A stretch of DNA of 51,405 nt, taken from positions 1 through 51,405 of the IMG/VR virus record IMGVR_UViG_3300031772_000051; one strand, given 5' to 3'. Source of the DNA: a virus. Made by a program: the position numbers and the translations under genes. This document shows, piece after piece, positions 13,030 through 38,473 of the stretch (positions are counted from its first letter, which is position 1; each line of letters starts with the position of its first letter). Under the pieces are notes generated by a model. The model saw nothing but the letters and a program-made list of their open reading frames with translations, did no database searches and was not told the DNA's origin.

Positions 13030-13030
13030 T

Positions 13031-13489
13031 ATGAGCGATTTTTCGCAAGACATTCAAAACTTTCAGCGATATGGAACCTACACTTACAAGTTTGATAGTG
13101 TTGGGAACATGACGTTCGACAGCTCCTCTGCCAACTTCAATCAAGTGTATTTGGCATTTCCACTTCAAAATGTTATCTACAACCCCGTCAAGGTCAAGAA
13201 TATTTATAATACGGAATTTGAGGAGTTTATACCGGGCCCAGTCTCCGAGACGGAGCAGAGGGTGGACACCCTTCAACAACAGTTGGATGTTGTTCAGGAA
13301 GAGAACGTCACACTGAAAACACAGCTCGATTCGGTCATCTTGCAGAATGAGTCCAGTGGTTCGGTAGCAGATATTATGGCGACGAAGCAAGTTATTATCG
13401 AACTCCGAAAAGCAGTCGGACAGGGAAGAGTGGAGACTGATTTTTCCGATACATTCCCTTACACGCCAATAAGAAAACCAACAACATAA
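13031..13489 (+). CDS. Small virion-region protein with coiled coil, 152 aa
   Basis: The N-terminal half is beta-rich (FQRYGTYTYKFDSVGNMTFD). Residues about 72-105 form a strong coiled coil (TEQRVDTLQQQLDVVQEEN). The C terminus is short and basic. One base separates it from each neighbour, so it is translated together with the 889-aa and 1567-aa proteins. I do not recognise the family. A trimerising connector between larger baseplate proteins would fit, but is inference. Confidence 0.65.
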   Translation: MSDFSQDIQNFQRYGTYTYKFDSVGNMTFDSSSANFNQVYLAFPLQNVIYNPVKVKNIYNTEFEEFIPGPVSETEQRVDTLQQQLDVVQEENVTLKTQLDSVILQNESSGSVADIMATKQVIIELRKAVGQGRVETDFSDTFPYTPIRKPTT

Positions 13490-13490
13490 T

Positions 13491-16400: not shown

Positions 16401-18194
16401 TCTCTATTGTTCCGTATGCATACGGACTATCCATTTGACATGCGTCAAATTGCCCCGGGTGATGCCGTACCAAACAACTTCATAGGGTTGTCTGGACCAT
16501 ATAACGTATGGGTAGGACAGTGGAGAAATGCAAACCCATACTATGCAACAAACTCGATAAACAAGCAATTTGATTGTCTGACGCCAACGCCAACACAAAT
16601 CAACAACATGGATTTGATGGCCAATTATGCGGCGTGGAGTGGTTCGCAAAAGTTGGTTTATGATACCGCCTCCTGCCGATACGTGTCACAATCTACATAC
16701 CCGTGGCAATTCAAGGTAATTGATTATCCAAGCACTTGGGGAGTGTCCAAATATGGTCCAAACAAATTCAGAAATGAAAAGGTAAGGCATACATCCCAAT
16801 CTATTGCTGCCCGATTTGACAACAAGGAGCGTTCTACGTATGTTCCTCGCAACAACACGGCACCAGATTCCAACCAAGTAGGATTCTTCGTTGACCCACA
16901 GGATTTCCGTAACAAAGATACGGTAAGATACTTTGGAAATTTCGATTTCATGGATGCAATCGGTGCGCCATTCAATCAGTATTCACAGAGTTATCAATCG
17001 CTCAATCTTTTCCGCAAAGAATACGCCTCATCACTTAATGAAGGCAGCGGAAGCAGAACTTTGTTCAATGAGTTAATCACACTCTACAAGCTATACTTCA
17101 ACCGTTCCATATTTGAAGCAATCAGGAACGTTGTGCCCGCCCGTGCGAATGCACTTGTTGGAGTGTTGATAGAACCCTCCATTTTGGAGCGTCCGAAGTA
17201 TCCAATTAAACCAATCGGAAGCGAAATGAACAGTGGTTCGGTGTGGTATGGTGAAGCGACTGCATCACATTATTTCCGTGACCCAAACACCAAGTTGTGT
17301 CGCCTTACAGAGTCGCTTCTCTATGCGGACTTCAACTTTAATACGAACTCCGTATCAAATTTCAACACCAATTCTATGCCCGAAAATAGAATTATTGATG
17401 TGAATTTGTCATATCTCAATTTGCCAAACAGAATGTACCCCGTCAACTATTTGATGGGTGGAACGTATATCGGGGATATGATGGACCCATATCAACTTGG
17501 GCACTTTGCTGGTGGAATCGTCGCCGATCCAAACATCATCCTTGCTCCGGTCACAGTGGTTCCAATAGCAAACTTCATTGCGGATGTTACGTCTGGAAAT
17601 TACCCATTGACTGTAAACTTCTCCAACCTAAGTGTGGATGCCGATGGATATTCGTGGGACTTTGGAAATGGAACTGGTAGCGTAGAAGTTGCTCCTACCT
17701 ATGTTTATAACATACCCGGCGTTTACACGGTTACGCTTACTGCCTTCCGTGGTGAATTGTTTGATGTAGATACTCAAGTGGGGTATATCACCGTCAATGC
17801 AATACCTGCGGTTTCATGTTTTAGTTCTGGAAGCTCACGCAGCGGAGTCGCTCCCGGTGGATTCCCAACTCAATACACCATCACTCTTGGATCTGCAACG
17901 GGTTCTATTCAGTTGAAATTCAATTCTTACAATGTTCCTGACAAATACATCGTTATTTATGAGGGTAACACCGTGATTAACACTGGATACCGTGGCGCAT
18001 CATCGTATCAGGCAGCATTGAATACCGCACTTCTGTCGAGAGGATTGCCATCCGAAACCATTATAACCCCCGGTCATGGTACGGCAACGTTCCTCAAGAC
18101 GGGTAGTTCTTCCACGGCAATTGTTCAAACGTGGTCGCCATTGACGGGAACGGGATGGAACTGGACTGCAAGTTGCCCGGGAGTCACACTATAA
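13491..18194 (+). CDS. Giant baseplate/tail protein with LamG-like and PKD domains, possible gp7 counterpart
   Basis: 1567 residues. Around residues 680-720 the segment RILINLPRIFKTKGTEESVR followed by ILACYGVPSSLLTIREYGG resembles the KGT...YG(I/V) signature of tail protein I and gp7-like wedge proteins. With gp25 and gp6 just upstream this suggests the gp7 role (T4 gp7 is 1032 residues). Residues about 767-963 form a LamG/concanavalin-like sandwich (KLQVWYDAITDSNFEDYANS at its end). Residues about 1357-1437 are a typical PKD domain (YSWDFGNGTGS, PGVYTVTLTAF). A further unrecognised beta domain ends the protein. The PKD domain is secure; the gp7 link rests on motif and gene order only. Confidence 0.65.
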   Translation: MEFTSYQMVSNNTASLNTGSYLNRTEYSLFVNGFASDLWYGFSENDVVELAVWDRENNFIAWDVLEDSKSYSEVTLSYLNALDFPITYSYSELQSNLILYKNAKILVNPTAELSSSMGILDGSYFLAYNFTREMAGRSDTPLIIKDISPSRRELKLIPLTTVSASYEAFCKKKVLVRDVSPLYLQAIKGCPYGQIYNKVSPLYENQINTIKSIFFLNTDGAMVNFLRNLYEDITIYTTTPVSTPSGPSSISGSVVRIQGIQTYFNNYLLSNSDNIVDFPDMDAQFDGYVSASIERKFAPIGQHPLPQYVQAKAFVYDYFTKYFYQPISDILRTTYREKYFADLKNAINLGDNRLLPILQHGVMDERQSPNEPLTLLVKLQSELPPDLAIQSSCWVSNISLSPYVVNAIVKNPQGNVIHKIGPPNFSVPIPHVSLTNTNQSYTATDLQHDNETDRELTVSRNLTELNVDYTDFQNFVVFSSAELRLKIFKNKIINASALSSSIRTLDQRNTTFMLASGSSYPYYTQEWTSTQGEINGIVNSFDGFESYLYRSGDYAYVNGNFISSSFVAEMDVSASAYDKNNRDSLINNCPYHILSDSLNDDYIIFLSMIGHFFDEIYIYIANMPSERHVGSGATEAFTRRIVEYMLETFGWTLDDSLEQANMLNNYLTSEQQEGLNGMSAEDRLKEVRNRILINLPRIFKTKGTEESVRVILACYGVPSSLLTIREYGGVNYTDEKASYTTYERSFMYQWDTSSKYDHFRNNLTTNCNTFLLKFCIGDADSYVYGREQNMLGVVGGGVTANSPSGSGDWTVGFIREPGPNLGRVYFRIGYDNNPQFKITSSTFPLFDGSIYSLMLRRNLVPTGFEYNTNTDAIPSIFDLYVQKNEFGNQTLRLTSSKVSYDYAINHRFSVDSSGSYLMLGGWFADRNGQGFTGAMDKLQVWYDAITDSNFEDYANSINAYSFSGSRPAHQSLLFRMHTDYPFDMRQIAPGDAVPNNFIGLSGPYNVWVGQWRNANPYYATNSINKQFDCLTPTPTQINNMDLMANYAAWSGSQKLVYDTASCRYVSQSTYPWQFKVIDYPSTWGVSKYGPNKFRNEKVRHTSQSIAARFDNKERSTYVPRNNTAPDSNQVGFFVDPQDFRNKDTVRYFGNFDFMDAIGAPFNQYSQSYQSLNLFRKEYASSLNEGSGSRTLFNELITLYKLYFNRSIFEAIRNVVPARANALVGVLIEPSILERPKYPIKPIGSEMNSGSVWYGEATASHYFRDPNTKLCRLTESLLYADFNFNTNSVSNFNTNSMPENRIIDVNLSYLNLPNRMYPVNYLMGGTYIGDMMDPYQLGHFAGGIVADPNIILAPVTVVPIANFIADVTSGNYPLTVNFSNLSVDADGYSWDFGNGTGSVEVAPTYVYNIPGVYTVTLTAFRGELFDVDTQVGYITVNAIPAVSCFSSGSSRSGVAPGGFPTQYTITLGSATGSIQLKFNSYNVPDKYIVIYEGNTVINTGYRGASSYQAALNTALLSRGLPSETIITPGHGTATFLKTGSSSTAIVQTWSPLTGTGWNWTASCPGVTL

Positions 18195-18197
18195 TTT

Positions 18198-18899
18198 ATG
18201 AACTACGGCGAAATATCATTTGACATGACGGTGGATCAACACGCAACGGGTTCACGTTCAGATTACCTGCTCAAGCGTTGGCGGAAGTTCACTATTTATG
18301 CAAAAAGCGGGTCTTACAATAGGACAGACAACCCGTTGGAAAATCTGTATTCCACGTCGTCGGTATATCTGTATGACTATGTAGTTGTCCGAAAAGATTG
18401 GTACAGCAGCATGGTTTACACGTCGTCATTTATTGATACGACTCCTGCGGATTATACGTCGGAAACGGGTTCAAACCAGTGGTTTCATAGAGAAAACACC
18501 TTCCGCAACAGTCCCAATGCAATCGTCAACAATTACCAATTGCAGTACAACCCAATTGCATCTGGAATCTTTCCGGCAAGACCAAGGTATGGTTATTCCC
18601 CACTATTTCCATCCTTCAATCCGCCGCCTATTTATACAGATCAAGGTGAATACTTTGAAATAGTGGGGAGTTACCCACTCAATCATTTTACGCATAAGCG
18701 TTCATTGTTCTCGTTGTTTAACATGACAACCTATGGTATGGAGGCGGGCGTAGTTACCTCTGGTTCGTACTTTAGATGTCAGCAAACTATCACGACAACC
18801 ATCGGGGAAAATGGATTGGAAGATGGTTCGGCACCAGTTCAGTCAACACAAGTCGGAAATCTTAACCTGATCCAGAGCGATAACGTAATAAACAAATAA
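18198..18899 (+). CDS. Virion-region protein, 233 aa, unknown
   Basis: This protein is rich in Tyr, Asn, Ser and Phe and is probably all-beta (YGEISFDMTVDQHATGSRSD, then many aromatic strands such as FHRENTFRNSPNAIVNNYQL). It begins 3 bases after the giant LamG/PKD protein and is the last gene before the homing-endonuclease insertion. The composition matches the neighbouring tail proteins. No family is recognised; a tail or baseplate accessory component is inferred from position. Confidence 0.65.
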   Translation: MNYGEISFDMTVDQHATGSRSDYLLKRWRKFTIYAKSGSYNRTDNPLENLYSTSSVYLYDYVVVRKDWYSSMVYTSSFIDTTPADYTSETGSNQWFHRENTFRNSPNAIVNNYQLQYNPIASGIFPARPRYGYSPLFPSFNPPPIYTDQGEYFEIVGSYPLNHFTHKRSLFSLFNMTTYGMEAGVVTSGSYFRCQQTITTTIGENGLEDGSAPVQSTQVGNLNLIQSDNVINK

Positions 18900-18940
18900 A
18901 AAAGGGTTGCTCGCTGATACTTATTAGATGAGAACCTTTT
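18898..18940 (+). terminator. Imperfect hairpin before the homing endonuclease
   Basis: AAAAAGGGTTGCTC can pair with GAGAACCTTTTT with two bulged G residues, and the downstream arm ends in a T run. It could be a weak terminator that separates the endonuclease from the tail operon. The pairing is imperfect and the loop is about 17 bases. Confidence 0.3.
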
Positions 18941-18951
18941 TATAAAGACAT

Positions 18952-19533
18952 ATGGCCACAATCGGCATCTATAGAATAAGAAACACCAAAAATGGAAAGT
19001 TCTATCTTGGTAGTTCGGATGACATTGTTCGTCGTTGGAAAGAAGGTCATAAAGCAAAGTTAGTTCGAGGAGTTCATGACAATCCTCATCTACAAAATGC
19101 TTGGAACAAGTATGGCAAAGACTCATTTTTGGTGGAGGTTTTGCGAGAGTGTTCCAAAGAAGATTTATTGGTGGAAGAGCAAAAAGAGTTGGATGTATGG
19201 GTAGGGTGTCCTGAATGTTATAACATTAGGAAGGACGCAAAATGTATTGTTTTGCCGGGGAGTAATAGACCGGAGTGGGTAAAACAAAAAATATCACTTG
19301 CTCAAAAAGGGAAACCTCGGTGGACAGAAGAACAAAAGAAACAGATGTCTATTCAGAGAAAAGGTAGAAAGCATTCACCAGAAACCATAGAAAAATTTAT
19401 TGGGCGAAAAAGCTCTCGTGAGAATATCAAGAAAGCACAACTGTTCAATGTCGGACGTGTTTATTCGGAAGAACACAAAGCAGCAATTTCCGTTGGAAAA
19501 ATAATTTCTCACAGAGAAAAAATCGGAGCATAA
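18952..19533 (+). CDS. GIY-YIG homing endonuclease with NUMOD3 repeats
   Basis: 193 residues. The N terminus has the GIY-YIG nuclease core: GIYRIRN, then KFYLGSS (the YIG position is YLG), the arginine of DDIVRRWKEGH, and the glutamate of KDSFLVEVLREC. The C-terminal half contains NUMOD3-type DNA-binding repeats (KQKISLAQKGKPRWTEEQKK, HSPETIEKFIGRKSS, YSEEHKAAISVGK). This layout is that of free-standing Seg/I-Tev-type endonucleases, which cut an unoccupied allele so that the gene is copied in. It lies between two virion genes. TATAAAG lies 11-5 bases before the ATG, and a GGAG in its last codons serves as ribosome site for the following gene. Confidence 0.9.
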   Translation: MATIGIYRIRNTKNGKFYLGSSDDIVRRWKEGHKAKLVRGVHDNPHLQNAWNKYGKDSFLVEVLRECSKEDLLVEEQKELDVWVGCPECYNIRKDAKCIVLPGSNRPEWVKQKISLAQKGKPRWTEEQKKQMSIQRKGRKHSPETIEKFIGRKSSRENIKKAQLFNVGRVYSEEHKAAISVGKIISHREKIGA

Positions 19534-19534
19534 T

Positions 19535-20179
19535 ATGGCATATATTGACAATCAAACCATAACTGTAGATGCGGTTTTGACCAAAAAAGGTCGTGAACTG
19601 CTTGCCAAGACTGGCAATCTGAACATCACGTCATTTGCTTTGGCAGACGACGAGATTGATTACACGCTTTACCAGCCAAACCACCCCAACGGAAGCGCAT
19701 TCTACGACATCGCTCTACGTAACACCCCTGTCTTTGAACCATTGACTGATGAAACGCAGACGATGAAGTATAAACTCGTCACGTTGAACCAAGGTGTTAC
19801 CGCCATTCCAGTCATCACGATTGCTCAAGACAAGATTCTCGTTACTCGTGACTACACTGGCGACATCATTATCAGTCCTTCCACAAACCCCGCTTACAAC
19901 CTTCAGGCCGGTTACACAGCGATTTTGGGAAACAAGAATGTCGGAACTCTCATTGTTCAGCAAACGAACTCAATCAATGCGGTGTCCAATACTATCCCCA
20001 CGTTCGCCGGGGACATCAACACCACAAGTGCTCAGGTTGTTGTCGGAAACACTTTCCGCTTTGTTCCAAACAGCAGTCTTGGAAAGACAACCACAACCAA
20101 TTTAACCATTGTCGGAAATGAATCTGGTGGAAGTATCTCTATCGAGGTAACTGTTACCGTTCCTCCATCCAATGCCTAA
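19535..20179 (+). CDS. Virion structural protein, 214 aa
   Basis: The N terminus (MAYIDNQTITVDAVLTKKGR, ELLAKTGNLNITSFALADDE) is a pattern seen in tail/baseplate-associated proteins of large phages, where a short helix is followed by beta strands. The remainder is beta-rich with Thr/Asn-rich sheets and an Ig-like C-terminal part (TTTTNLTIVGNESGGSISIE). It starts 1 base after the homing-endonuclease stop. A tail component is likely from composition and context; the exact role is unknown. Confidence 0.65.
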   Translation: MAYIDNQTITVDAVLTKKGRELLAKTGNLNITSFALADDEIDYTLYQPNHPNGSAFYDIALRNTPVFEPLTDETQTMKYKLVTLNQGVTAIPVITIAQDKILVTRDYTGDIIISPSTNPAYNLQAGYTAILGNKNVGTLIVQQTNSINAVSNTIPTFAGDINTTSAQVVVGNTFRFVPNSSLGKTTTTNLTIVGNESGGSISIEVTVTVPPSNA

Positions 20180-21346: not shown

Positions 21347-22546
21347 ATGATCAAGCACATAAATCATCAAAACCTCTTAACGACTCCCTTCGTTGCTGTT
21401 AAGCAATGGGAGTTATTTAGCGTTCAAAATGATGATGTAGTGTTGATTGAACCTCCGGATTCGTTGCCGGAATTTGCGGTAGCCCTAGACTACGTTGATT
21501 ACAATAACGGAGTTCCTATCATCAACCGTGATTGTGATATTGCACTTGAGCAACAGGACTCAGATGTTATCTCATATCAAGAAGGTGCAACAGGGTCGGG
21601 AATCTTCTATCCCGACAGTGAACCAAAAAATTCCGATGGCACTTACAAGCGCATGGTCCATGTTCAGACCAAGGCAGCTTTTTATAACCTTCGCCGCAAT
21701 CCTACTCAGATATTCGGAGTGGAATATATTGACTTCCCCCTTGGCAAGACCGATCGTGAATTATCAGATGTTTTCCGCCTATTCAGCATCCCCCGCCACT
21801 TTTTTGGGGATAAATTGGTCGAGAGTAGCATTCATTTTTATGACACATCATTGGATGATAATGTAGAAATTCATGATGATGGGTATCAAAACCTATTGGC
21901 GGGACCAAATTTATTCTCAAAAATTCAAGAAGTTCGTGGATTTAATAGTCCCGAGGCATTTACAAATATAATTATGCCGGGAACGGCTAGCTGTGATTGC
22001 CCTACGTATAACGGAACGGTATTCACGGCATCCGCACATGCCACATCATCCGTTAATGTAGGATTTTTGAGTGGTAGATTGGAATTGCCGCCGCCAACCG
22101 GAAGCGAATCCAGCAGAGAGTTGAGGGTGTCCTTCTTGTTTGGAAGTATAACCGATTATTTCATGACTGATGAGATTAGGGCTTCTACAGTCTCGTTCGG
22201 ACCATCGGGAAGTACTCATATAGGAGCGGTTGAGACAAGCATTACAGAGTCGTTTGGAGAAAACTGGGTTACATTCGGACCTACGGGGTCAATGCAAAGT
22301 TTGGTGTATGAAGTGAGCGGAAGCGACCTTAACCAAGCAGAAATGAGCGTAACATTCCCCGACACGGGGTCGGGATTGAATAACATAGTTCTTCCAACAA
22401 GCGGAAGCGACCTTAACCAAGCAGAAATGAGCGTAACATTCCCCGACACGGGGTCGGGATTGAATAACATAGTTCTTCCAACAAGCGGAAGCGAAGCGAT
22501 ACAAGATTTGTCAGTAGGATTTGGATCAGGATTTATTGCAACATAA
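21347..22546 (+). CDS. Tail-associated protein A1, N-terminal module shared with the 23922 gene
   Basis: 399 residues. Residues 1-200 match the first 205 residues of the 504-aa protein at 23922 closely (both start MIK.I..(Q/H)NLLT(T/S)PF.AVK.WEL and share DCDIALEQQDSD or DCNIALEQQDSD, LFSIPR and GxQNLLAGxNLFSKIQE). Residues about 205-399 are unrelated to the paralog and include two exact 28-residue repeats. The pattern is that of a conserved attachment domain with a variable distal part, as in tail fibres. No clear ribosome site is seen before the ATG. Confidence 0.7.
   Translation: MIKHINHQNLLTTPFVAVKQWELFSVQNDDVVLIEPPDSLPEFAVALDYVDYNNGVPIINRDCDIALEQQDSDVISYQEGATGSGIFYPDSEPKNSDGTYKRMVHVQTKAAFYNLRRNPTQIFGVEYIDFPLGKTDRELSDVFRLFSIPRHFFGDKLVESSIHFYDTSLDDNVEIHDDGYQNLLAGPNLFSKIQEVRGFNSPEAFTNIIMPGTASCDCPTYNGTVFTASAHATSSVNVGFLSGRLELPPPTGSESSRELRVSFLFGSITDYFMTDEIRASTVSFGPSGSTHIGAVETSITESFGENWVTFGPTGSMQSLVYEVSGSDLNQAEMSVTFPDTGSGLNNIVLPTSGSDLNQAEMSVTFPDTGSGLNNIVLPTSGSEAIQDLSVGFGSGFIAT
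22316..22494 (+). repeat. 84-bp perfect tandem repeat
   Basis: Two identical 84-base units begin at 22316 and 22400, and the first 11 bases of a third begin at 22484. Each encodes 28 residues (SGSDLNQAEMSVTFPDTGSG and eight more). The two copies show no difference, so the duplication is recent or kept uniform by recombination. Confidence 0.95.
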
Positions 22547-23921: not shown

Positions 23922-25436
23922 ATGATAAAACAGATTGGCAAACATAATCTCTTGACTTCGCCCTTTGCGGCGGTGAAGGCATGGGAATTGTCCAATGTAG
24001 ATAATGAAGATGCCGTTTTGCTAGAACCGCTGTCTCAGAGCCTTCTCATTCCAGATACATTAGTCGCTGTTGATTACATTGCGTATTCTCCTACATGTGT
24101 TCCTATTCTAAACACTGACTGTAATATAGCACTTGAGCAACAAGACTCTGATTTGGCCATCTTTGAAGAAGGTGTTAGCGGGAGTGGATTATTCACTCCC
24201 GCTGATGAGGCGCAAAACGACGATGGGACATACAAGCGACTTGTGTATGACCAGATGGGACGAGCATTCTATAATCTCTACCGAAATCCGTTGCAGATTT
24301 TCGGAATGGAGAATATAGATTTTCCGCTAAGTAAAACAGATAGATACCTCGCCGACCGATTCTTGTTGTTTTCCATTCCGAGGCGTATGATGGGGGATCG
24401 GTTGGTCGAGGGGTCTATTGAACTCTTTGATAATACTTTGGATGACCACGTTGAAATTCATGATGACGGGAATCAGAACCTATTGGCTGGGTCAAATCTG
24501 TTTTCCAAGATTCAGGAGATTCGTCATATTGAAAATGAGGTAGTGGTTCCAATTACATCCGGCCCGGCGGGTATTCCTACAATTACGGGAAGTCAGGGAA
24601 CTACACTTTCCATTGAAAACATAAATTCTTTTGGATTGGACATCTCCGTTGTTGGTGAGTATGCTATAGTAGTTGGATTCAGCGGAACGGTTAGAACTTC
24701 CACAGACGGAATCAACTGGAATTCGGAAACATCCAACGCCAGTGGAAGACATCTAAGAGGAATCGCTTATAATAGTAGTTCGCTATATGTTGCGGTGGGA
24801 CAGGCGGGCGTATGCATAACTTCGCCAGATGGTATGGCGTGGACCGCCCAGTCAAATACCGATGTATTTCCAAATTGGAATATGAACAGCATAGTTTATA
24901 ATGGAACCAAATTCTATGCAATAACGGATACCGGAATTGTCAAGAGTTCTACCAATGGAGTAGCATGGGCAGTTGAATCCACGCTTCCAAGCGGTGTTGG
25001 AGCAAAACAGATTATCTGGGACGGAACCCAATTCTTAGTGGTAAATGGAAACCTTGCGGATTCCCTCGAAACTTCTCCGGATGGTATTACATGGACGGCA
25101 CAGACCACAGGAACCAGTAATAATCTAACCGACATTGTTTATGCCGCAGGATTGTATATTACGGTTGGAGATGCTGGGGACATACTTTACTCGTCAGATT
25201 CAATTACGTGGAATGCTGCGGTCACTGGACCAGTGGTAGCCGGAGACTCCATTGCATCTATCGTATATGGAAATGGATACTGGGTATTGAATACCGACCA
25301 CGGGGAACTGTGGTATTCTGTTGATGGCATCAATTGGTATCTGTGGCCATTCTGGGCGGAAGACGGAATACTCAGGACATTTTATTACACAAGATTGGAA
25401 TTCCTTACTTCGGGAGATCCACTTGTACCAAGATAA
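23922..25436 (+). CDS. Tail-associated protein A2: paralogous adaptor module plus Asp-box beta-propeller
   Basis: 504 residues. Residues 1-205 are the paralog of the 399-aa protein at 21347. Residues about 215-490 contain repeated units of the type TSxDGxxWxxxT (TSTDGINWNSET, TSPDGMAWTAQS, SSTNGVAWAVES, TSPDGITWTAQT, YSSDSITWNAAV, YSVDGINWYLWP), which is the Asp-box/BNR beta-propeller pattern of sialidase-like and glycan-binding proteins. No sialidase catalytic site is visible. The gene ends with TAA, and the next large ORF continues in the same frame 33 bases later. A glycan-binding role is inferred from the fold. Confidence 0.75.
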   Translation: MIKQIGKHNLLTSPFAAVKAWELSNVDNEDAVLLEPLSQSLLIPDTLVAVDYIAYSPTCVPILNTDCNIALEQQDSDLAIFEEGVSGSGLFTPADEAQNDDGTYKRLVYDQMGRAFYNLYRNPLQIFGMENIDFPLSKTDRYLADRFLLFSIPRRMMGDRLVEGSIELFDNTLDDHVEIHDDGNQNLLAGSNLFSKIQEIRHIENEVVVPITSGPAGIPTITGSQGTTLSIENINSFGLDISVVGEYAIVVGFSGTVRTSTDGINWNSETSNASGRHLRGIAYNSSSLYVAVGQAGVCITSPDGMAWTAQSNTDVFPNWNMNSIVYNGTKFYAITDTGIVKSSTNGVAWAVESTLPSGVGAKQIIWDGTQFLVVNGNLADSLETSPDGITWTAQTTGTSNNLTDIVYAAGLYITVGDAGDILYSSDSITWNAAVTGPVVAGDSIASIVYGNGYWVLNTDHGELWYSVDGINWYLWPFWAEDGILRTFYYTRLEFLTSGDPLVPR

Positions 25437-28705: not shown

Positions 28706-31108
28706 ATGTTTGTTCAAGTAAAAAATGAAAATTATGGGTATGCAGTCGCCACTTACGGTGATTACGTAGTGGTGTCGAATCCAGATTTTTTGCGTTTCAA
28801 CGCTGCTACTGCCAGTGTGTATCACACTGGTTCAGTGGACTTTTTTCGTTATAATAAGAGCACTGACTCCCACGATTATGTAAATACCATTTACAACGTC
28901 GGATTTGAGGTCAATGTGATTTTGGAAACCGAACTCACTAACAGCACGGTTTACCAAATAAACACCGAAACAGGAAGCGTAGTGGGGCCACTGGCAGATC
29001 TTATTATTGATAAAGACCGATACACCGCCTCGGTGGATAACGCATTCGGCAAATCCATTGACATGTATGGAAAACTGTTGATTGTTGGTTCTCCATATGC
29101 TACACAAATTGTTATCACAAGTGCGAGTATCATCACCGCTTCAGGTGCGTCGGTTGACGTTCACGATTTCGGAAGAACCGAGTTTATTCCTCTAAGTCAG
29201 AGTAGTTTTGTATTCAGTTTCAACAATCCAGATATAGCCGTCACTTCTTCATTTGGATGGGGAGTAAGCATAAACAGTTCGTGGATTGCAATCGGGTCTC
29301 CTCATGTAAGTTCTTCCAAAGGAACGGTTTACATGTATCGCAACATCTCCACCGGAAGCAATTACAGTTGGAGTTTCTTCCAGAGAATTGAGCCATCTGG
29401 TTCGGTGGCGGATGCCCAATTTGGATGGGACTTGAAGCTCAATAAACAGAGCGGGTCTGTAAGTCAAAGCATGGTTGTTGGATGTGGAAATCAAGCCAAT
29501 GGTCAAGCATATTATTTTGAATTTGTAAGTGGAAGTTGGACCCAGACATTTGAGTTTTTCCCAACGACTGATATTCTTCCACTGACGTTTGGAGGGTATG
29601 CACCCTATAACCCAACCATGAACATCACCAATGGATTTGGATACGCAGTATCCACATTTGATGAAGCGGTTGTGGTTGGAGCACCCCTAGACCGACTGGT
29701 GTATGAATTCAGCGGGTCATCGGTTTACGAACAGGGTTCGGTTTACGTATTTGAAAAGTGTAAGAATCTTCCCTATACAAAGTTTGATTTGGTTTTGAAG
29801 ACTTACGGCACGGACTTGACCATGAAGAATAACCGCCTCGGGTATTCGGTGGACATATTTCAAAGCAATGCGGTTGTCGGAATTCCAAAAACAGACAACG
29901 AAACTTTGACCTCGTGTTATGTTGCTGCGACGATAGACCAACTCCATCAATGCACAAACAATTTGGAGAACACTCTCAATGGTCAGGCAATGCTTCTTCA
30001 AAAAAACACTTCCTCTCTCGATTGGGAAATCACCAACGTCTATCAAAAAAAGAAGAAGTATCTAAGTCCATATCGTGACTTTGGAAACGATGTATCTATT
30101 GCTGACAGGTCTATGGTTGTCGGCGCACCGATGATTCTGTCTAACGACATCCGTCAGATGGATATTTCCACTACACAAAGCAATAACATTTCCTTAGATG
30201 ATATAATGGGCAAGGCATACATCTACAATCTCAAGAATCTGCGTGATGAGTTTCACGTCGGAAACGTTTTCTATAGAAACGGAAAGATTGTCATCATGAC
30301 CTCTGGGTCTGTGTTTGACGGGTTGTTCTTCAATGCGGTGAATACGAGCACTTACGAATACGACCTGCAATTCAAGGGTCAACATACCATTTTTGAGAAG
30401 CAGGTTGTTTGCACAGTAAGCCCGGGCGAATTCAACGTCAGCACCAACCCTACGGCAGTGTACAAGCCAACCGCATCCCTTGACATCAACGGAAATGGAG
30501 AGTTTGATTTCCAAGATGCCGACATCATTCTTCGTTACATGCAGTACAAGAATACCTCGTTTTTGGGACAGCCGGTCTCGACCGATTGGAGTTCATCCAT
30601 CGTAACGTCTGATGATGAAATCAGCTTCCTAAATTACCACCAAGATGCTAATACCTACAACAACGAATACACTTCATTCCTCGCCAGCGAAAGCATAGTG
30701 AGATGGGAGTTGGTTGATACATGGGTTCAAGACGTGTTGGATTTGAACGAGGATAACCGAATTGACATTCGAGACATGAACATTGTGTGGAAGTATTTCG
30801 CCAATCGTTTGACTCAGGAGAATTACGCAACTTACATCACTCCTTCCTGTAAGAAAAAACTCTTCAGTGATGTCATTGATTATCTAAACTTCGTGACTCA
30901 AAAGACTGCCACTGCACAAATCGTTCCAGAATTTTTTGATTACGAGCATTCGGTTGCATTGGATAAAACGGGGTCGTTTTTGGCTCCAATGGCAACAACC
31001 ATTGGACTTTACAGTGGTTTGGACTTGGTTGGTGTCGCCAAACTAGGAACACCCATCAAGATTATTCCCGAGCTTCCAATCAATTTTGTTGTCAAAATGG
31101 ATTACTAA
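28706..31108 (+). CDS. Tail protein with FG-GAP-like propeller and dockerin-like calcium-binding repeats
   Basis: 800 residues. Residues about 1-500 contain repeated units such as FGKSIDMYGKLLIVGSPYAT, FGWGVSINSSWIAIGSPHVS, FGYAVSTFDEAVVVGAPLD and FGNDVSIADRSMVVGAPM, the integrin-alpha FG-GAP propeller pattern. Near residue 590 (LDINGNGEFDFQDADIILRY) and near 670 (LDLNEDNRIDIRDMNIVWKY) are two dockerin-type calcium loops, D.N.(N/D)...D..D, each followed by a helix. The last 38 residues match the C terminus of the 380-aa protein at 20188. Family folds bind cell-surface proteins or sugars with calcium; the tail role is inferred. Confidence 0.75.
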   Translation: MFVQVKNENYGYAVATYGDYVVVSNPDFLRFNAATASVYHTGSVDFFRYNKSTDSHDYVNTIYNVGFEVNVILETELTNSTVYQINTETGSVVGPLADLIIDKDRYTASVDNAFGKSIDMYGKLLIVGSPYATQIVITSASIITASGASVDVHDFGRTEFIPLSQSSFVFSFNNPDIAVTSSFGWGVSINSSWIAIGSPHVSSSKGTVYMYRNISTGSNYSWSFFQRIEPSGSVADAQFGWDLKLNKQSGSVSQSMVVGCGNQANGQAYYFEFVSGSWTQTFEFFPTTDILPLTFGGYAPYNPTMNITNGFGYAVSTFDEAVVVGAPLDRLVYEFSGSSVYEQGSVYVFEKCKNLPYTKFDLVLKTYGTDLTMKNNRLGYSVDIFQSNAVVGIPKTDNETLTSCYVAATIDQLHQCTNNLENTLNGQAMLLQKNTSSLDWEITNVYQKKKKYLSPYRDFGNDVSIADRSMVVGAPMILSNDIRQMDISTTQSNNISLDDIMGKAYIYNLKNLRDEFHVGNVFYRNGKIVIMTSGSVFDGLFFNAVNTSTYEYDLQFKGQHTIFEKQVVCTVSPGEFNVSTNPTAVYKPTASLDINGNGEFDFQDADIILRYMQYKNTSFLGQPVSTDWSSSIVTSDDEISFLNYHQDANTYNNEYTSFLASESIVRWELVDTWVQDVLDLNEDNRIDIRDMNIVWKYFANRLTQENYATYITPSCKKKLFSDVIDYLNFVTQKTATAQIVPEFFDYEHSVALDKTGSFLAPMATTIGLYSGLDLVGVAKLGTPIKIIPELPINFVVKMDY

Positions 31109-31537: not shown

Positions 31538-32107
31538 ATGTCACTACAGCAAGTCAAAGTTTCGAGAGAAGAAGTTCTGAAAATTGTTCAAGAGAACAAG
31601 ACCAAACACGATTTGGTTCTAACTGAGGCCATCGCCGGATACTGGTTGGATGCAGAAACTCATTTGAAAAAGAATGAGAAGGAACAGTTGGAACAAATCA
31701 ACAAAAGTCATCGTGAAAAGCTCAAACAGCTTAGAAAAGCACGCAAAGAGGCGACCAAACTGCTAAAAGTCTATACGAAGAACGATTTGGATTTGGTCAA
31801 GGCCAAAGACAAGACCAAGCGGTTCAATTATTGGCAAGGGAAATATCCCGAAGACCACGGAGATGATTACACGGGAACAATTCGTCGTTTGGAGTTGTGC
31901 GTTGAATCTGAGGTTGAGTTGGATACCAATGAATTTGATGCCTACATCCGAAACAAGTGGCAATGGAGGGATTCGTTCCTCGGATCCAATACTTGCTATG
32001 TGACCTCATATCGGTCTTCGCCATATGCGGTCTCTGCGTCGTGGGCAACGTGCTCAGTGTCCGCATCATATGCTGGCACCGGGTCACTTGGAAAAATTGA
32101 CTTCTAA
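31538..32107 (+). CDS. Coiled-coil protein with fibre-like C-terminal tail, 189 aa
   Basis: It has AAAGGA 8 bases before the ATG. Residues about 1-95 are highly charged and predicted to form a long coiled coil (LKKNEKEQLEQINKSHREKL and following). A short globular part follows. The C terminus (residues about 158-182) reads SPYAVSASWATCSVSASYAG, the ASWA/SASYA type of repeat found in beta-helical fibre shafts. It starts just after the terminator and ends 4 bases before the RuvC-like gene. The combination is odd for a nucleic-acid module. Function unknown. Confidence 0.6.
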   Translation: MSLQQVKVSREEVLKIVQENKTKHDLVLTEAIAGYWLDAETHLKKNEKEQLEQINKSHREKLKQLRKARKEATKLLKVYTKNDLDLVKAKDKTKRFNYWQGKYPEDHGDDYTGTIRRLELCVESEVELDTNEFDAYIRNKWQWRDSFLGSNTCYVTSYRSSPYAVSASWATCSVSASYAGTGSLGKIDF

Positions 32108-32111
32108 GATT

Positions 32112-32612
32112 ATGGTGCTAGGATTTGATGCATCAACAACGATTTGTGGGTGGGCGTTCTATGATGGAACGGTTATACTGGATGCTGGATTTGTAGATAT
32201 TTCCGAGTGTCCGACAAACAAAGAAAAGGCGTTACGAATTATATCTCTCATGGACGCCCATCCACTGATTTCAAAGGTACTTCAAATCAACTTGGAGTCT
32301 GCTCTCTCCGGATTTATGATGGGGAGAACCAGTCAACAAGTCATCATCAAACTTGCCCGTTTCAATGCTGTCTTTGAATACATAGTTTCAGAACACTTCA
32401 AAATAGGGGTCCGTTTGATAAATGCTACCACTGCCCGCAAGGCTGTTTTTGGAAAGGCCAGAGTCAAAGGTATGACTGGCAAGGAATATGTTCGGCAGCA
32501 AATTGATGCTCGGTTTCCATATGTCCATTCTTTTGATAAAATGAACAAGCGGGGAACGTGGGATGCTCATAACGAAGACACATATGATGCAGTTGTTATA
32601 GCAATGGCGTGA
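32112..32612 (+). CDS. RuvC-like Holliday junction resolvase
   Basis: 166 residues from the ATG at 32112 (MVLGFDASTTICGWAFYDG). In-frame codons upstream lie inside the previous gene and give non-family sequence. The RNase H-like fold motifs are present: the first acidic residue in GFDAS (Asp6), a second in INLESALSG (Glu near residue 62), and the C-terminal acidic pair in NEDTYDAVVIAMA. RuvC-family enzymes cut four-way DNA junctions in recombination and before packaging. T4 uses an unrelated endonuclease VII (gp49) for this. It lies in a recombination/replication block. Confidence 0.8.
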   Translation: MVLGFDASTTICGWAFYDGTVILDAGFVDISECPTNKEKALRIISLMDAHPLISKVLQINLESALSGFMMGRTSQQVIIKLARFNAVFEYIVSEHFKIGVRLINATTARKAVFGKARVKGMTGKEYVRQQIDARFPYVHSFDKMNKRGTWDAHNEDTYDAVVIAMA

Positions 32613-33322: not shown

Positions 33323-33643
33323 ATGAAATCGGGTTACTTGTACCTCATTACAAATGACGCATTCCCCAACTGGGTTAAAGTTGGAACAACTTTTGACTTG
33401 ACTCAACGTCTTCATGTTTATCAAACCGGAGACCCTTTCCGCCGCTACCGCATCGTCTATTCCGTCCATCATCCCGACTTCCGCCAAGCGGAGAAAAACA
33501 TCAAAGAGACCATGAAGCGGTTTGCCCATGATATTAAGGGGGAGTGGTATGAAATTGCCTTGCACATGGCAAAGAGTCGCTTGGAGGAGCAATTGGAAGA
33601 ATATACAGAACGGGCATCGGAAACAAAACAATCATCCCTATGA
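33323..33643 (+). CDS. T5orf172-type GIY-YIG nuclease-like protein, 106 aa
   Basis: The whole protein is one domain: GYLYLITN, then WVKVGTTFDLTQRLHVYQTG and DPFRRYRIVY, then a helix and GEWYEI. This is the T5orf172/Mug113 branch of the GIY-YIG superfamily, with the tyrosine, the KVG in place of YIG, the arginine and the glutamate in order. It has no DNA-binding extension, unlike the homing endonuclease at 18952. Such small proteins may be DNA-processing nucleases or selfish elements. The stop overlaps the alginate lyase ATG (ATGA). Confidence 0.8.
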   Translation: MKSGYLYLITNDAFPNWVKVGTTFDLTQRLHVYQTGDPFRRYRIVYSVHHPDFRQAEKNIKETMKRFAHDIKGEWYEIALHMAKSRLEEQLEEYTERASETKQSSL

Positions 33644-34293
33644 CAAAATACAATATCGACCTTTCCCATTGGAAGCTAACTCTTCCAGATTCTACGCCTC
33701 CCACAGAAATCTCCCCCGCTAACTTGGTGGGTGGGTGGACACATCCCGAATGGTTTACAAAGGGAAGTGACGGCGAACTCATATTTTCCACACCTACAAA
33801 CGGAGGACACACGCTTGGGTCATCTTATCCAAGGACAGAACTGCGAGAGCTTATAGATGGGAAGTCAGACAGAGTAAACTGGAAACTGACCGGCACAAAC
33901 ATTCTTTCGGCAACGTGTGCCATAAACAAAGTCCCTCCTTCTAAAAAAGTAATCATTGGACAGATTCACGGGAAAGACGGAACCTCGCTTCCCCTATTTA
34001 AGATGGTTTATAATGCGGGCAAGTTAGTTGCTGAATTCAAGAAGTCTCCATCGGACAGTACAGATATAAAACTTGATTTTGGAAAGTACTCATTGAGCAA
34101 ACAAATCAAGTATGAAATAAAGGTTGTAGATCTTACGGCAACAATCACCGTGAACGGCAAAAGTAAAACCGTTCAGTTAGTGCCTGAATGGAACCCCTGC
34201 ACTTTTTATTTCAAGGCAGGATGCTATTGCATTGACAATGTGGGTTCAAAACAGGCAAAAGTGACATTTTACGAGTTGGCGGCGTCACATTAA
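33640..34293 (+). CDS. Alginate lyase, polysaccharide lyase family 7
   Basis: 217 residues, the size of a single-domain PL7 enzyme. The three family blocks are present with their catalytic residues: RTELRE (Arg65 onward), QIHG (Gln108, His110) and YFKAGCY (Tyr190 to Tyr196). The start YNIDLSHWKLTLPD is also typical. PL7 enzymes cleave alginate by beta-elimination. QIH rather than QVH is usually linked to guluronate-containing substrate. There is no signal peptide and no fibre-attachment domain, so the enzyme probably gathers in the cytoplasm and is released at lysis. It is coupled to the upstream gene by ATGA and is followed by an early-type promoter for primase. Confidence 0.93.
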   Translation: MTKYNIDLSHWKLTLPDSTPPTEISPANLVGGWTHPEWFTKGSDGELIFSTPTNGGHTLGSSYPRTELRELIDGKSDRVNWKLTGTNILSATCAINKVPPSKKVIIGQIHGKDGTSLPLFKMVYNAGKLVAEFKKSPSDSTDIKLDFGKYSLSKQIKYEIKVVDLTATITVNGKSKTVQLVPEWNPCTFYFKAGCYCIDNVGSKQAKVTFYELAASH

Positions 34294-34299
34294 AATAAG

Positions 34300-34328
34300 T
34301 TGAGTTTCCTCAAGAAGTCGAGTATTCT
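34300..34328 (+). promoter_or_regulatory. Sigma70-like promoter for primase and recombination nuclease
   Basis: TTGAGT (34300-34305), an exact 17-base spacer and TATTCT (34323-34328). The upstream element AAAATAAGTTGA is identical to that of the 3749 promoter. The predicted start is near 34335, the A of the primase ATG. Confidence 0.6.
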
Positions 34329-34333
34329 TGAGG
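34308..34333 (+). other. Hairpin ending one base before the primase ATG
   Basis: A perfect 9-bp stem (CCTCAAGAA paired with TTCTTGAGG) with an 8-base loop covers the -10 element and the only purine-rich ribosome-site candidate (GAGG). It may be a DNA operator or, on readthrough RNA from upstream, a translational block. Confidence 0.55.
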
Positions 34334-34334
34334 C

Positions 34335-35270
34335 ATGTTGGTGCAATCTCAGATTGTTGGGTTACTCAATGAATTGCTGAATCAGACTGCCCGTATGCGT
34401 AAGGGCGGTATGCAAGCGGTTTATTTCTGCCCCTGTTGTCATCACTACAAGCGCAAGTTGGAGATTAACCTAGAGACTGGACAGTGGCACTGTTGGACAT
34501 GCAATATCAAGGGGTCTTTCCTTGGGTCATTTCTGACCAAAGTCAAAGCACCGAAGACTTATCGGGATCGTCTTCTTAAACTGACGGGAGACGTTCGGTT
34601 TACGATGCAGAGCAAGTATGTGGCATCAGCCGAGGTTGCCCTTCCCGGGGAATTCCACCCCCTCTCCCAACCCAAAACCTCGCCGGAATATAAGAACGCC
34701 ATGATGTATCTGAAACGTCGTGGAATCATCCGTGAAGACATACTTAGATATAACATCGGTTATTGCGAGACTGGTCCATATGCATATCACATTATCGTTC
34801 CATCATACGATGCAAAAGGTAATCTGAATTTTTTCATGGGCAGACGCTATTACGAGAGTGAAGGAACAATTCCCCACAAAAAACCCGAAGTGTCAATGGA
34901 CCTTGTTGGGTTTGAAATCTTTATCAACTACAACGAACCACTCAATCTCTGTGAAGGTGTATTCGATGCCATTGCCATCCGCAATAATGCCGTTCCTCTT
35001 TTTGGAAAATACCCATCAAAGAAACTACGAGAAAAGATGATTATCAACGGCACGAAGCGAGTTAACATCGTGTTGGATAGTGATGCTTTGAGAGATGCTG
35101 TGAAGAACTATTCACTCCTGATAAAAGACGTTCCAAACATTGAGGTTCACGTTGTTAAGTTGAACGGCAAAGATCCGTCATCGCTTGGGTTTGAGCGAGT
35201 CTCGGATCTGATTAACACGTCTAGGGAATTTGACTTTACCGATTTACTGAATTACGAACTAGGATTATGA
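34335..35270 (+). CDS. 61: DNA primase (DnaG/gp61-type, zinc ribbon plus TOPRIM)
   Basis: 311 residues (T4 gp61 has 342). A zinc ribbon lies at residues 32-56 (Cys32, Cys35, Cys53, Cys56; FCPCC then HCWTC). The middle (YLKRRGIIREDILRYNIGYC) is the usual primase linker. The TOPRIM domain follows, with the glutamate of LCEGVFDAIAI near residue 205 and the acidic DSD motif of VNIVLDSDA near residue 247. It makes RNA primers for lagging-strand synthesis; in T4 it works with the gp41 helicase, which is not in this window. Its stop overlaps the next ATG (ATGA), so primase and recombination nuclease are translated together. Confidence 0.88.
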   Translation: MLVQSQIVGLLNELLNQTARMRKGGMQAVYFCPCCHHYKRKLEINLETGQWHCWTCNIKGSFLGSFLTKVKAPKTYRDRLLKLTGDVRFTMQSKYVASAEVALPGEFHPLSQPKTSPEYKNAMMYLKRRGIIREDILRYNIGYCETGPYAYHIIVPSYDAKGNLNFFMGRRYYESEGTIPHKKPEVSMDLVGFEIFINYNEPLNLCEGVFDAIAIRNNAVPLFGKYPSKKLREKMIINGTKRVNIVLDSDALRDAVKNYSLLIKDVPNIEVHVVKLNGKDPSSLGFERVSDLINTSREFDFTDLLNYELGL

Positions 35271-38200
35271 TAACTGTACTTGCCTCACCATTTCCAAAAT
35301 ACACCAATATTCTGCATGTCGCAGACATCCATATCCGTCTGAATAAGCGACATGATGAATACAAGGAGGTATTCGCCAACCTCTATGAAGAAGTTAAGCA
35401 AACGCCACCGGAGACCGTGGTAGCGTTGTTAGGCGACGTATTTCATAGCAAGTCGGATTTGAGTCCTGAGTGTATTCAAATGGCGACGGATTTGTTCAAG
35501 GCACTTGCTGACATTCGTCCACTGGTTCTCATTGCGGGCAACCACGACGCCACATTGTCAAATAAGAGTCGCTTGGATAGTTTGACTCCTCTGGTTGATT
35601 CTCTCAATCATCCCAACTTGTTTTATCTCAAGACCACGGGTCTGTATGGATTTGGAAACATTCTGTGGAACAACATGGGCGTGTTTGACGCCCCCGAACA
35701 CTACATCGCAGGTAACACCATTCCTGACATTTACCGCAATCAGTATGAGCACGTCATCGCCATGTTCCACGGGGCGGTAGATAAGGCGGCGTTGGAGACG
35801 GGATATGCCATCAGCAACCCTGCTATTATGAACCCGTTATTTGACTACAACGATATTGCGTTGCTCGGGGACATACATAAGAAGCAAGATATGCAGGACT
35901 ATGCGCCTGACGACCACAAACCATGCATACATTACGTCGGCAGCATGATTCAACAGAATCATGGTGAAGGTCTGCGTGGTCACGGATATTCATTGTGGGA
36001 CTTGAAGACTCGCACTTACGAATTTTACGAACTCAGGAACGATTATGGATACTTTACGGTTGACGTGAATAAGGGACAGCTCACAACCGACTTAAAAGAC
36101 CTTCCCAAGAAGGTGCGTCTTCGTCTCAAGTGTTACGACAGTATTGCGTCCGAAGTTAAGGCAGTCATTTCCAAAATAAAGGAATTGGCACTCGTCGTGG
36201 AAACTGCCTATGTCCGCATGGATCAAGAGCGAGACAAAAAAGACATCATTCCACTCTGTAAAGACATCGTTCTGACCGACCTGACGAACGTTGATTATCA
36301 GAATCGTCTCATCACTGAGTTCTTACAGAAGAAGGTTCTAATCACAGACCAATCCAAAATTGATGAGATTTTGAAAATCAATCGAAACACGAATTTGCTC
36401 ATTAAGCGTGACGAATTTGCTCGCAATCTCAAGTGGAAACCCATCCGATTTGAGTTTGACAATATGTTCACGTATGGAGAGAACAACGTTGTGGATTTCA
36501 CATCTATGGCGGGAGTGTATGGAATATTTGGACCGAACAAATCCGGTAAATCAAGCATTCTTTCAGCAATCATTTTCTGTCTGTTTGACAAATTTGATCG
36601 TGGGTTTAAGGGGGTTCACGTCATGAACGTGCAGAAGACCTCATTCAAATGCAAATTGGAGTTTGAAATTTCCGGCGTGCGCTACTTCATTGAACGCAAG
36701 GGTTCTACGACTCGTTCCGGCAATGTCAAGGTAGATGTGAAATTCTGGAAGATGGAGAATGGGGTGGAGGAAGAATTGCACGGCACGGCAAGACGTGACA
36801 CCAACGATATTATCCGTGACTACATTGGAACATATGAGGATTTCATTCTCACAGCAGCATCATTCCAAAGTGCTAAGAATCTATCGTCATTCATTGACAT
36901 GGGTAACAGCGAGAGAAAAGACCTCATGGTTCAATTCATTGGGTTAAACGTCTTTGACCGCCTACAGGAGTCGGCAGGAGAACGAAATAAGGAACTGAAT
37001 GCCGTTCTAAAACTCCACAAAGACAAGAACTATCCACATGAAATTCAGCAGAACGACAGTGCGTTGGCACATGCCGTTTCTCTCTTCGATGAAAACCAGA
37101 AAGAAGTGGATAGTCTCAAGAAGCAGATTGCCGACGTTAATAACCAAATCATCTCGGAGACTGCCAACCTGATTCGTTTGGATGCAGAAGTTCCGACCAA
37201 TCTTCCCGCCTTGGAAACCAAGAAGACATCTTCCGAAAATTCGGTTAAACAGAAGCGGCAGGCGTTGGAAGGATTTAAGACTCTGCTCTCCGAGAAAGAA
37301 AAGACGGTTGCAGACCTAAATGCACAAATCAAGAAGATTGAAGAGTCCAATTTGGTTGAGAGTCACAAAACTTACAAGTCTCTTTCGGATAAAATTAACG
37401 AAGTCAAGCAGAAGATGGATCTTAAGAAGGTTGAGATTAAGGGTAAGTTGGAAAAGGTCGCTCGTCTGGATAAACATGAGTATGACCCGAATTGCAAATT
37501 TTGCACCAACAATGATTTCGTCAAAGATGCGAGTAAAGCAAAGAAACAGTTGTCCGACGATAAAAAGGAAGCGGACAAAATGTTGGAGCATCTGGATAAT
37601 CTTAGGAGTGAACTCGCCAAGTTCGTTTGGGTTGAACAGGTGTATGAAACCTATACCAAGGCACTGACAGACCGAAGCAAGGTCAAGGATGAAGCGGCAG
37701 TTTTGAGCCGCAACATCATTGTCACGACGAATGAGTTAGAAAAGTTGGACACGGTTCTTAAAGAAGCAACCCACCAAATTGAACTGTATCATCGCAACGA
37801 AGCGTCAGTAATGATGAATGAAAGAGTACAGGCGAAAATCGGAACATATCGCAATACTCTCACTCGCTTAGACGTGGAGTTTCAACGTCAGAATCGCTTG
37901 TTGATGGATATTTCTGGAAAGCGGGAACTTTTCCGCAGCACCATCGAAACCTTGACCAAAACCATGAAGGAGGTTGCGGAGTTGGAAAATGAATCAGACT
38001 CTTATCAGCACTACATGCTGGCGGTGGGGCGTGATGGTATTCCCTATCAAGTTATCTGCAATACTGTGCCAGAGATTGAGAAGGAAGTGAACTCCATCCT
38101 AAGTCAAGTGGTGGATTACACCATTCAGTTTGAGACGGATGGTAAGAACATCATCCCCTACGTCGTTTATGAGTATGGTCGTTGGCCAATTGAGTTGACA

Positions 38201-38473
38201 TCGGGATATGAGCGGTTTGTTGCGTCTATTGCCATTCGTGTCGCTCTCACAAACATATCCAATCTCCCCAAAACGACCTTCTTGGCGATTGATGAGGGAT
38301 TTGGAACACTTGACCCCGACAATCTGGCGTCCATGTACACGCTCTTCTCCTTTTTGAAGAATAATTTTGACTTCGTATTGGTGATTTCTCACCTTGATGC
38401 CCTCAAGGATGCTGTGGACAAACAGATAGAGATCAAGCGGGAAGGCAACTTCAGTAAGGTTATTTTTGAGTGA
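35267..38473 (+). CDS. Single-chain Mre11/Rad50-like (gp47-gp46 fusion) recombination nuclease
   Basis: 1068 residues uniting two proteins that are separate in T4 (gp47, 339 residues; gp46, 560). Residues 1-340 carry the metallophosphoesterase motifs of Mre11/SbcD: HVADIHIR, LLGDVFHSK, IAGNHDATL, AMFHGAVD and LLGDIHKKQ. From about 390 the Rad50/SbcC ATPase begins, with Walker A GIFGPNKSGKSS. A long coiled coil follows, with a zinc hook at Cys743 and Cys746 (NCKFC). The signature motif (LTSGYERFVASIAIR, near 977) and Walker B (TTFLAIDEGFGTLD, near 1004) close the protein. The enzyme resects DNA ends for recombination-dependent replication and host DNA breakdown. No internal stop or frameshift is seen. 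Confidence 0.92.
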   Translation: MITVLASPFPKYTNILHVADIHIRLNKRHDEYKEVFANLYEEVKQTPPETVVALLGDVFHSKSDLSPECIQMATDLFKALADIRPLVLIAGNHDATLSNKSRLDSLTPLVDSLNHPNLFYLKTTGLYGFGNILWNNMGVFDAPEHYIAGNTIPDIYRNQYEHVIAMFHGAVDKAALETGYAISNPAIMNPLFDYNDIALLGDIHKKQDMQDYAPDDHKPCIHYVGSMIQQNHGEGLRGHGYSLWDLKTRTYEFYELRNDYGYFTVDVNKGQLTTDLKDLPKKVRLRLKCYDSIASEVKAVISKIKELALVVETAYVRMDQERDKKDIIPLCKDIVLTDLTNVDYQNRLITEFLQKKVLITDQSKIDEILKINRNTNLLIKRDEFARNLKWKPIRFEFDNMFTYGENNVVDFTSMAGVYGIFGPNKSGKSSILSAIIFCLFDKFDRGFKGVHVMNVQKTSFKCKLEFEISGVRYFIERKGSTTRSGNVKVDVKFWKMENGVEEELHGTARRDTNDIIRDYIGTYEDFILTAASFQSAKNLSSFIDMGNSERKDLMVQFIGLNVFDRLQESAGERNKELNAVLKLHKDKNYPHEIQQNDSALAHAVSLFDENQKEVDSLKKQIADVNNQIISETANLIRLDAEVPTNLPALETKKTSSENSVKQKRQALEGFKTLLSEKEKTVADLNAQIKKIEESNLVESHKTYKSLSDKINEVKQKMDLKKVEIKGKLEKVARLDKHEYDPNCKFCTNNDFVKDASKAKKQLSDDKKEADKMLEHLDNLRSELAKFVWVEQVYETYTKALTDRSKVKDEAAVLSRNIIVTTNELEKLDTVLKEATHQIELYHRNEASVMMNERVQAKIGTYRNTLTRLDVEFQRQNRLLMDISGKRELFRSTIETLTKTMKEVAELENESDSYQHYMLAVGRDGIPYQVICNTVPEIEKEVNSILSQVVDYTIQFETDGKNIIPYVVYEYGRWPIELTSGYERFVASIAIRVALTNISNLPKTTFLAIDEGFGTLDPDNLASMYTLFSFLKNNFDFVLVISHLDALKDAVDKQIEIKREGNFSKVIFE

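Follow-up and report, generated by a model that had tools for sequence, protein, structure and literature searches.

A predicted PL7 polyuronate lyase without export signal, inserted beside the primase gene of a T4-like phage

What use would a phage have for a matrix-degrading enzyme that has neither a signal for export nor a module for attachment to the virion? An open reading frame at 33640-34293 (+ strand) raises this question. It lies in a window of 51,405 nucleotides, the whole stretch of DNA analyzed here, from a large, T4-like bacterial virus recovered from a metagenome. We asked what the gene encodes, how it reached its position and what role its product could play.

A single-domain PL7 protein

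The preliminary description of this DNA had assigned the reading frame to the PL7 family of alginate lyases, and comparison with profiles, sequences and structures confirmed the assignment. Pfam PF08787 (Alginate_lyase2) spans residues 6-217 of the 217-residue, leaderless product and is covered from position 1 to position 225 of 225. With an E value of 2.8e-50 and a score of 171.7 bits against a cut-off of 29.7, a chance match is excluded. The top sequence match in the PDB was the polyuronate (alginate) lyase A1-II′ (2cws; E = 1.1e-40). An AlphaFold2 model, for which the input was an alignment of 24 sequences, had a mean pLDDT of 94.5, and Foldseek matched this predicted structure best to A1-II′ (TM 0.92, rmsd 1.7 Å), followed by PA1167 (TM 0.91). 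The protein, with a predicted mass of 23.9 kDa, is therefore modeled as the β-jelly roll typical of PL7. Since a second, 62-kb record (IMGVR_UViG_3300031707_000016) encodes the identical 217 amino acids (100%), the gene is not an assembly quirk; this is a near-identical record of the same phage, with a 99.98% match to window positions 1-46480.

All three conserved sequence blocks, described earlier as intact, were found. SA3 (RTELR, 33832-33846, +) contains R65, E67 and R69, which align with Arg146, Glu148 and Arg150 of A1-II′; SA5 (QIH, 33961-33969, +) contains Q108 and H110, at Gln189 and His191; and SA4 (YFKAGCYCI, 34207-34233, +) contains Y190, K192 and Y196, at Tyr278, Lys280 and Tyr284. 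In A1-II′, His191 is the proposed catalytic base and Tyr284 the proposed acid (PMC8286568). Since the A1-II′ mutants H191N and Y284F in the PDB set anchor the alignment at H110 and Y196, respectively, these residues are the equivalents of the proposed base and acid. Thus, the catalytic Arg, Gln, His and Tyr of A1-II′ (R146, Q189, H191 and Y284) are present as R65, Q108, H110 and Y196. The earlier statement did not hold for the end of SA4, as the published consensus is YXKAGXYXQ (PMC8618178) and the final Gln, a substrate-binding position in A1-II′ (Gln286), is replaced by Ile198. Isoleucine also occupies this position in phage proteins of the phiK7A1 type, described below, and other residues occur there in several cellular PL7s. 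Because the last position varies among related sequences, a complete SA4 block is a weak criterion for PL7, and I198 may reflect a possible shift in substrate preference rather than lost activity. The QIH motif in SA5 is no safe predictor of polyG or polyM preference, as QIH/QVH rules are unreliable for PL7 specificity (PMC6165035, PMC8618178).

It had also been proposed that the protein has no export signal and no virion attachment module, and that its gene lies outside the fibre genes. Our results bear out all three proposals. Leaders of PL7 proteins were scored by hydrophobicity and visual inspection rather than by a trained predictor. Because the highest mean Kyte-Doolittle value over 12 residues within the first 50 amino acids was only 0.23, we scored the window protein as having no signal or membrane segment. 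A concealed upstream start that adds a signal peptide was ruled out, since the start codon is the sole ATG, GTG or TTG within the open frame. The protein contains no carbohydrate-binding module or tail domain, its 217 amino acids being catalytic domain end to end, and comparison with the tail proteins of the phage revealed no module in common. The gene is placed between the T5orf172 and primase genes, outside the tail/fibre cluster. As judged from sequence, it is a further predicted phage alginate lyase of the PL7 family, with a soluble, non-virion architecture.

The T5orf172-primase junction

The phage itself offers weak pointers to its host. Its terminase and portal proteins are about 50% identical to those of Flavobacterium phage immuto and of the Microcystis phage Mel-JY01, and Shine-Dalgarno motifs are sparse (14 of 37 genes). 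In some relatives the match to the terminase begins only at residue 191 (L168, L170), or that to the portal only at residue 94, 95 or 159 (L153, L156, L170), which suggests interrupted genes, with introns, inteins or homing insertions as examples. In the tail region of the window, the proteins encoded at 21347-22546 and 23922-25436 have about 200 N-terminal residues in common (62%) and different C-termini; the common segment resembles a reusable attachment module. A third tail-region protein (28706-31108; 800 amino acids) contains FG-GAP repeats and a weak match to dockerin type I. In L013, the portion of the phage that extends past window position 1 carries eleven tRNA genes within about 8 kb (11961-19750 of that record), where a tmRNA call that overlaps two tRNA-Ala genes looks spurious.

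The lyase gene was said to sit beside nuclease genes, and profile matches support this. Upstream are a RuvC-like resolvase gene (32025-32612; PHROG 159, E = 2.5e-9) and the T5orf172 (GIY-YIG-like) gene (33323-33643; Pfam E = 3.2e-10), the end of which overlaps the PL7 start in the sequence ATGA. Downstream are the DNA primase gene (34335-35270; PHROG 47, E = 6.5e-34, and synteny) and a fused SbcD/SbcC-like gene (35267-38473; PHROG 77, E = 6.7e-54, and PHROG 100, E = 4.6e-19). All are on the + strand.

Relatives, identified by searching with the primase and terminase of the phage, have terminases that are 71-86% identical to that of the window. In nine of these contigs (L128, L129, L142, L150, L152, L157, L158, L165 and L170), T5orf172 is followed by the primase with no PL7 gene between them, and in six of the nine the gap is only 33-42 nt. 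At the same junction, L150 carries a homing-endonuclease-like ORF on the opposite strand, and L152 and L158 carry other inserts. A search with the PF08787 profile, which detected all known positives, found no PL7 in the records of 15 relatives, most of which are fragments.

Alignment with eight relatives revealed a conserved leader immediately upstream of the primase gene (34289-34334, +), with the architecture ATTAAAATAAGTTGAGTTT-N12-TAnTATTG-ATG. Where the gap is short, this leader in most relatives includes the stop codon of T5orf172. In the window phage, the leader instead contains the PL7 stop codon (34291-34293), and T5orf172 ends just upstream, overlapping the PL7 start. This comparison shows the PL7 gene to be an insertion between T5orf172 and the primase leader, with the leader as its right boundary and the primase gene as its right flank. 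The preliminary description had coupled the lyase to T5orf172 through the ATGA. The overlap is real; however, because nine relatives retain T5orf172 before the primase without PL7, it is best read as the left insertion boundary, with no functional pairing. We rejected a functional T5orf172-PL7 pair on the same grounds, and T5orf172 is best read as a core gene of the phage group rather than a partner of the lyase. The PL7 gene fitted the codon usage of the phage less well than any of 186 comparison segments, as a recent arrival would be expected to.

Several other features of the region were examined. No extra copies of the primase leader above chance occur elsewhere in the phage, and the T4 late promoter motif TATAAATA is absent from the window. 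The leader at 34289-34334, which contains a TTG-N20-TAnnnTTG pattern resembling Bacteroidota promoters, could act as the promoter of the primase gene. A perfect 9-bp inverted repeat (34308-34333; CCTCAAGAA, 8-nt loop, TTCTTGAGG) lies after the stop codon of PL7 and before the start of the primase gene; it is present once in the window and was not seen in the aligned relatives. A GIY-YIG-type homing endonuclease gene lies among the tail genes (18952-19533), and a gene related to it occupies the T5orf172-primase junction of L150. We also considered whether T5orf172 is homologous to the GIY-YIG gene found at the same place in Mel-JY01; there was no match, and this was rejected.

Cellular and viral relatives

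In two trees, the window protein falls outside the phage PL7 clade and groups with cellular enzymes around Verrucomicrobiota, Planctomycetota, Paenibacillus and A1-II′ (supports 97/93 and 100/100). Since it sits on a long branch and an AU test leaves a joint phage clade unrejected (p = 0.225), acquisition independently of the phiK7A1-type clade is favored by the trees, not proven. We identified no close donor, identities reaching about 45% at most. That value comes from the proteins nearest by sequence, of Verrucomicrobiota and Planctomycetota (L044-L048 and L052-L056), which differ in being cellular and in having signal-like leaders or large multidomain architectures. The closest, L044 to L048, all begin with signal-like leaders, and the rest of this part of the tree consists mostly of proteins with lipoprotein- or signal-like leaders or of large multidomain proteins.

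Among characterized folds, A1-II′ of Sphingomonas sp. A1 has the same fold and catalytic residues and is 40% identical over the domain, but it is a bacterial enzyme with Gln286, while the phage cargo protein has Ile198. PA1167 of Pseudomonas aeruginosa (1vav) is likewise a single-domain PL7, and its chromosomal kin (L075, L078 and L096) are leaderless and begin at the domain, as the phage protein does; it differs in being 34% identical, encoded on a bacterial chromosome and in a separate part of the tree. Among leaderless cellular proteins, one group of Pseudomonas chromosomal PL7s is single-domain, and an Azotobacter/Microvirga group has long C-terminal extensions. L016 was considered as the nearest viral relative and rejected, as it groups with the Pseudomonas chromosomal PL7s. 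Its other ORFs resemble, by eye, chromosomal chemotaxis-methylesterase and GGDEF proteins, and L016 probably represents host DNA.

Leaderless PL7s with lengths of about 205-227 amino acids form a distinct clade, which is common in viral contigs (L018-L039, L041 and L043) and is also present in Pseudomonas phages (phiK7A1_116, Arace01_00041 and Ep020). In phiK7A1 and several contigs, the gene lies between primase/helicase and exonuclease genes, and in phiK7A1 it is distant from the structural block. The window protein has the length, single domain, lack of leader and non-structural location that characterize this type. Its likeness to phiK7A1 gene 116, annotated as polysaccharide lyase family 7, and to the rest of that clade thus extends to being free-standing, leaderless and beside such replication and nuclease genes; the clade differs in identity (28%), in its separate place in the tree and in lacking the first part of the Pfam profile. 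The matching PHROG family is still annotated as of unknown function.

Other viral PL7s are built differently. PL7 carries a C-terminal extension in Nican01 and in QdP_Psa3, where it comes immediately after the major head protein; a signal-like leader precedes it in L017, and in L040 and L042 the match forms part of very long ORFs. Because extensions, a leader and very long ORFs were all found, phages deploy the PL7 domain in several ways. The closest viral structures in BFVD, A0A3G5A6J6 and A0A3G4ZVM8, are alginate-lyase-like proteins of giant viruses (Hyperionvirus and Edafosvirus), not phages. Alginate lyases on record for phages include those from Pseudomonas phage PT-6 and from a phage of Azotobacter vinelandii, of about 30-37 kDa (PMC5380687). 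These are phage-associated alginate lyases, as our candidate is predicted to be, but they are active proteins that were measured and recorded without sequence, while the window protein is a 23.9-kDa prediction. According to a 2023 review, phages of P. aeruginosa and A. vinelandii were still the only ones known to carry alginate lyase genes (PMC10621286), and we found no literature on the phiK7A1 lyase.

Release at lysis and alternative roles

On balance, we favor a model in which the gene is horizontally acquired PL7 cargo whose product, having no export signal, is released at lysis, cuts alginate or a similar acidic exopolysaccharide and aids the progeny. The T4-like phage would have acquired the gene as cargo, and the export signal of the bacterial source would have been lost or never taken along. 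The lyase would then build up in the host cytoplasm, be freed by host lysis and cut the polymer around the burst site by β-elimination, which may help progeny escape the matrix and reach neighboring cells. The lyases of flavophages have been proposed to let progeny escape from matrix (PMC8776804). Since we found no export route and no attachment module, soluble action after lysis, as suggested in the preliminary description, is the most likely mode. The intact domain, the catalytic residues, the absence of a leader where most of the nearest cellular kin bear signals, the insertion and the leaderless PL7s of other phages are all consistent with this role. Counting against it are the isoleucine at the substrate-binding Gln286 position and the fact that bacteria, too, have leaderless PL7s of similar size, the function of which need not involve lysis.

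That PL7 occurs in a single phage among those sampled from its group would fit equally a neutral or short-lived passenger, brought by recent recombination to a site that accepts mobile genes and of little or no benefit to the phage. The atypical codon usage and the homing-endonuclease-like ORF and other inserts at the same junction in L150, L152 and L158 point the same way. We nevertheless consider a passenger unlikely, as the reading frame and active-site residues are intact and leaderless PL7 is kept in a second phage group, in some 20 contigs and in cultured phages. It is more doubtful still that the lyase belongs to the virion, attached to the tail or packaged in the particle as a bare domain that has no recognizable attachment module, and acts at adsorption as classical depolymerases do. 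The tail gene cluster does end just 2.5 kb upstream on the same strand, and the extended, head-adjacent (QdP_Psa3) and long-ORF (L040 and L042) forms of other phages speak for such a placement. However, the window protein is wholly catalytic domain, has no module in common with the tail proteins and is encoded at the primase rather than among the tail genes.

Release at lysis would operate in the same way if the substrate were another polyuronate, such as a glucuronan-like host capsule or matrix. PL7 includes the β-glucuronan lyase 7nde, which matches the phage protein by sequence (E = 1e-17) and its model by fold (TM 0.87); the replacement of Gln286 favors a non-alginate substrate, and the poor predictive value of the QIH/QVH rules (PMC6165035, PMC8618178) leaves room for one. 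As the nearest matches in both sequence and fold, A1-II′ and PA1167, are alginate enzymes, we regard such a substrate as improbable. Least probable, in our assessment, is an auxiliary metabolic gene whose product nourishes the infected host by breaking down alginate, as oligomers or as polymer. A role of this kind has been suggested for the PL6 genes of viruses in estuarine viromes, and alginate lyases have been proposed as viral metabolic genes in phages of Bacteroidota and Gammaproteobacteria (PMC12285232); moreover, there are bacteria that take alginate up as the whole polymer and cleave it once it is in the cytoplasm (PMC8286568). However, such whole-polymer import is described as an entirely separate strategy, and in Bacteroidetes alginate is degraded outside the cytoplasm (PMC8286568). 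A leaderless lyase would not reach outside polymer before lysis, and no transporter or uronate catabolism genes were recognized among the window proteins scanned.

The usual description of phage depolymerases is as parts of the virion. Free-standing, leaderless PL7 genes are frequent in Pseudomonas-type phages, and one is present in a T4-like phage that belongs to another group. Tentatively, at least two phage groups may have independently trimmed a PL7 that bacteria secrete down to the catalytic domain alone and set it beside the primase, although we hold this with less confidence than release at lysis itself. If true, it would reveal a general, virion-independent strategy, in which a matrix lyase is stockpiled in the cytoplasm and released in the burst, freeing progeny and opening up neighboring cells. 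The leaderless phage PL7s are a concrete, easily expressed set of enzymes with which the part played by lysis-released matrix enzymes in biofilm spread may be tested.
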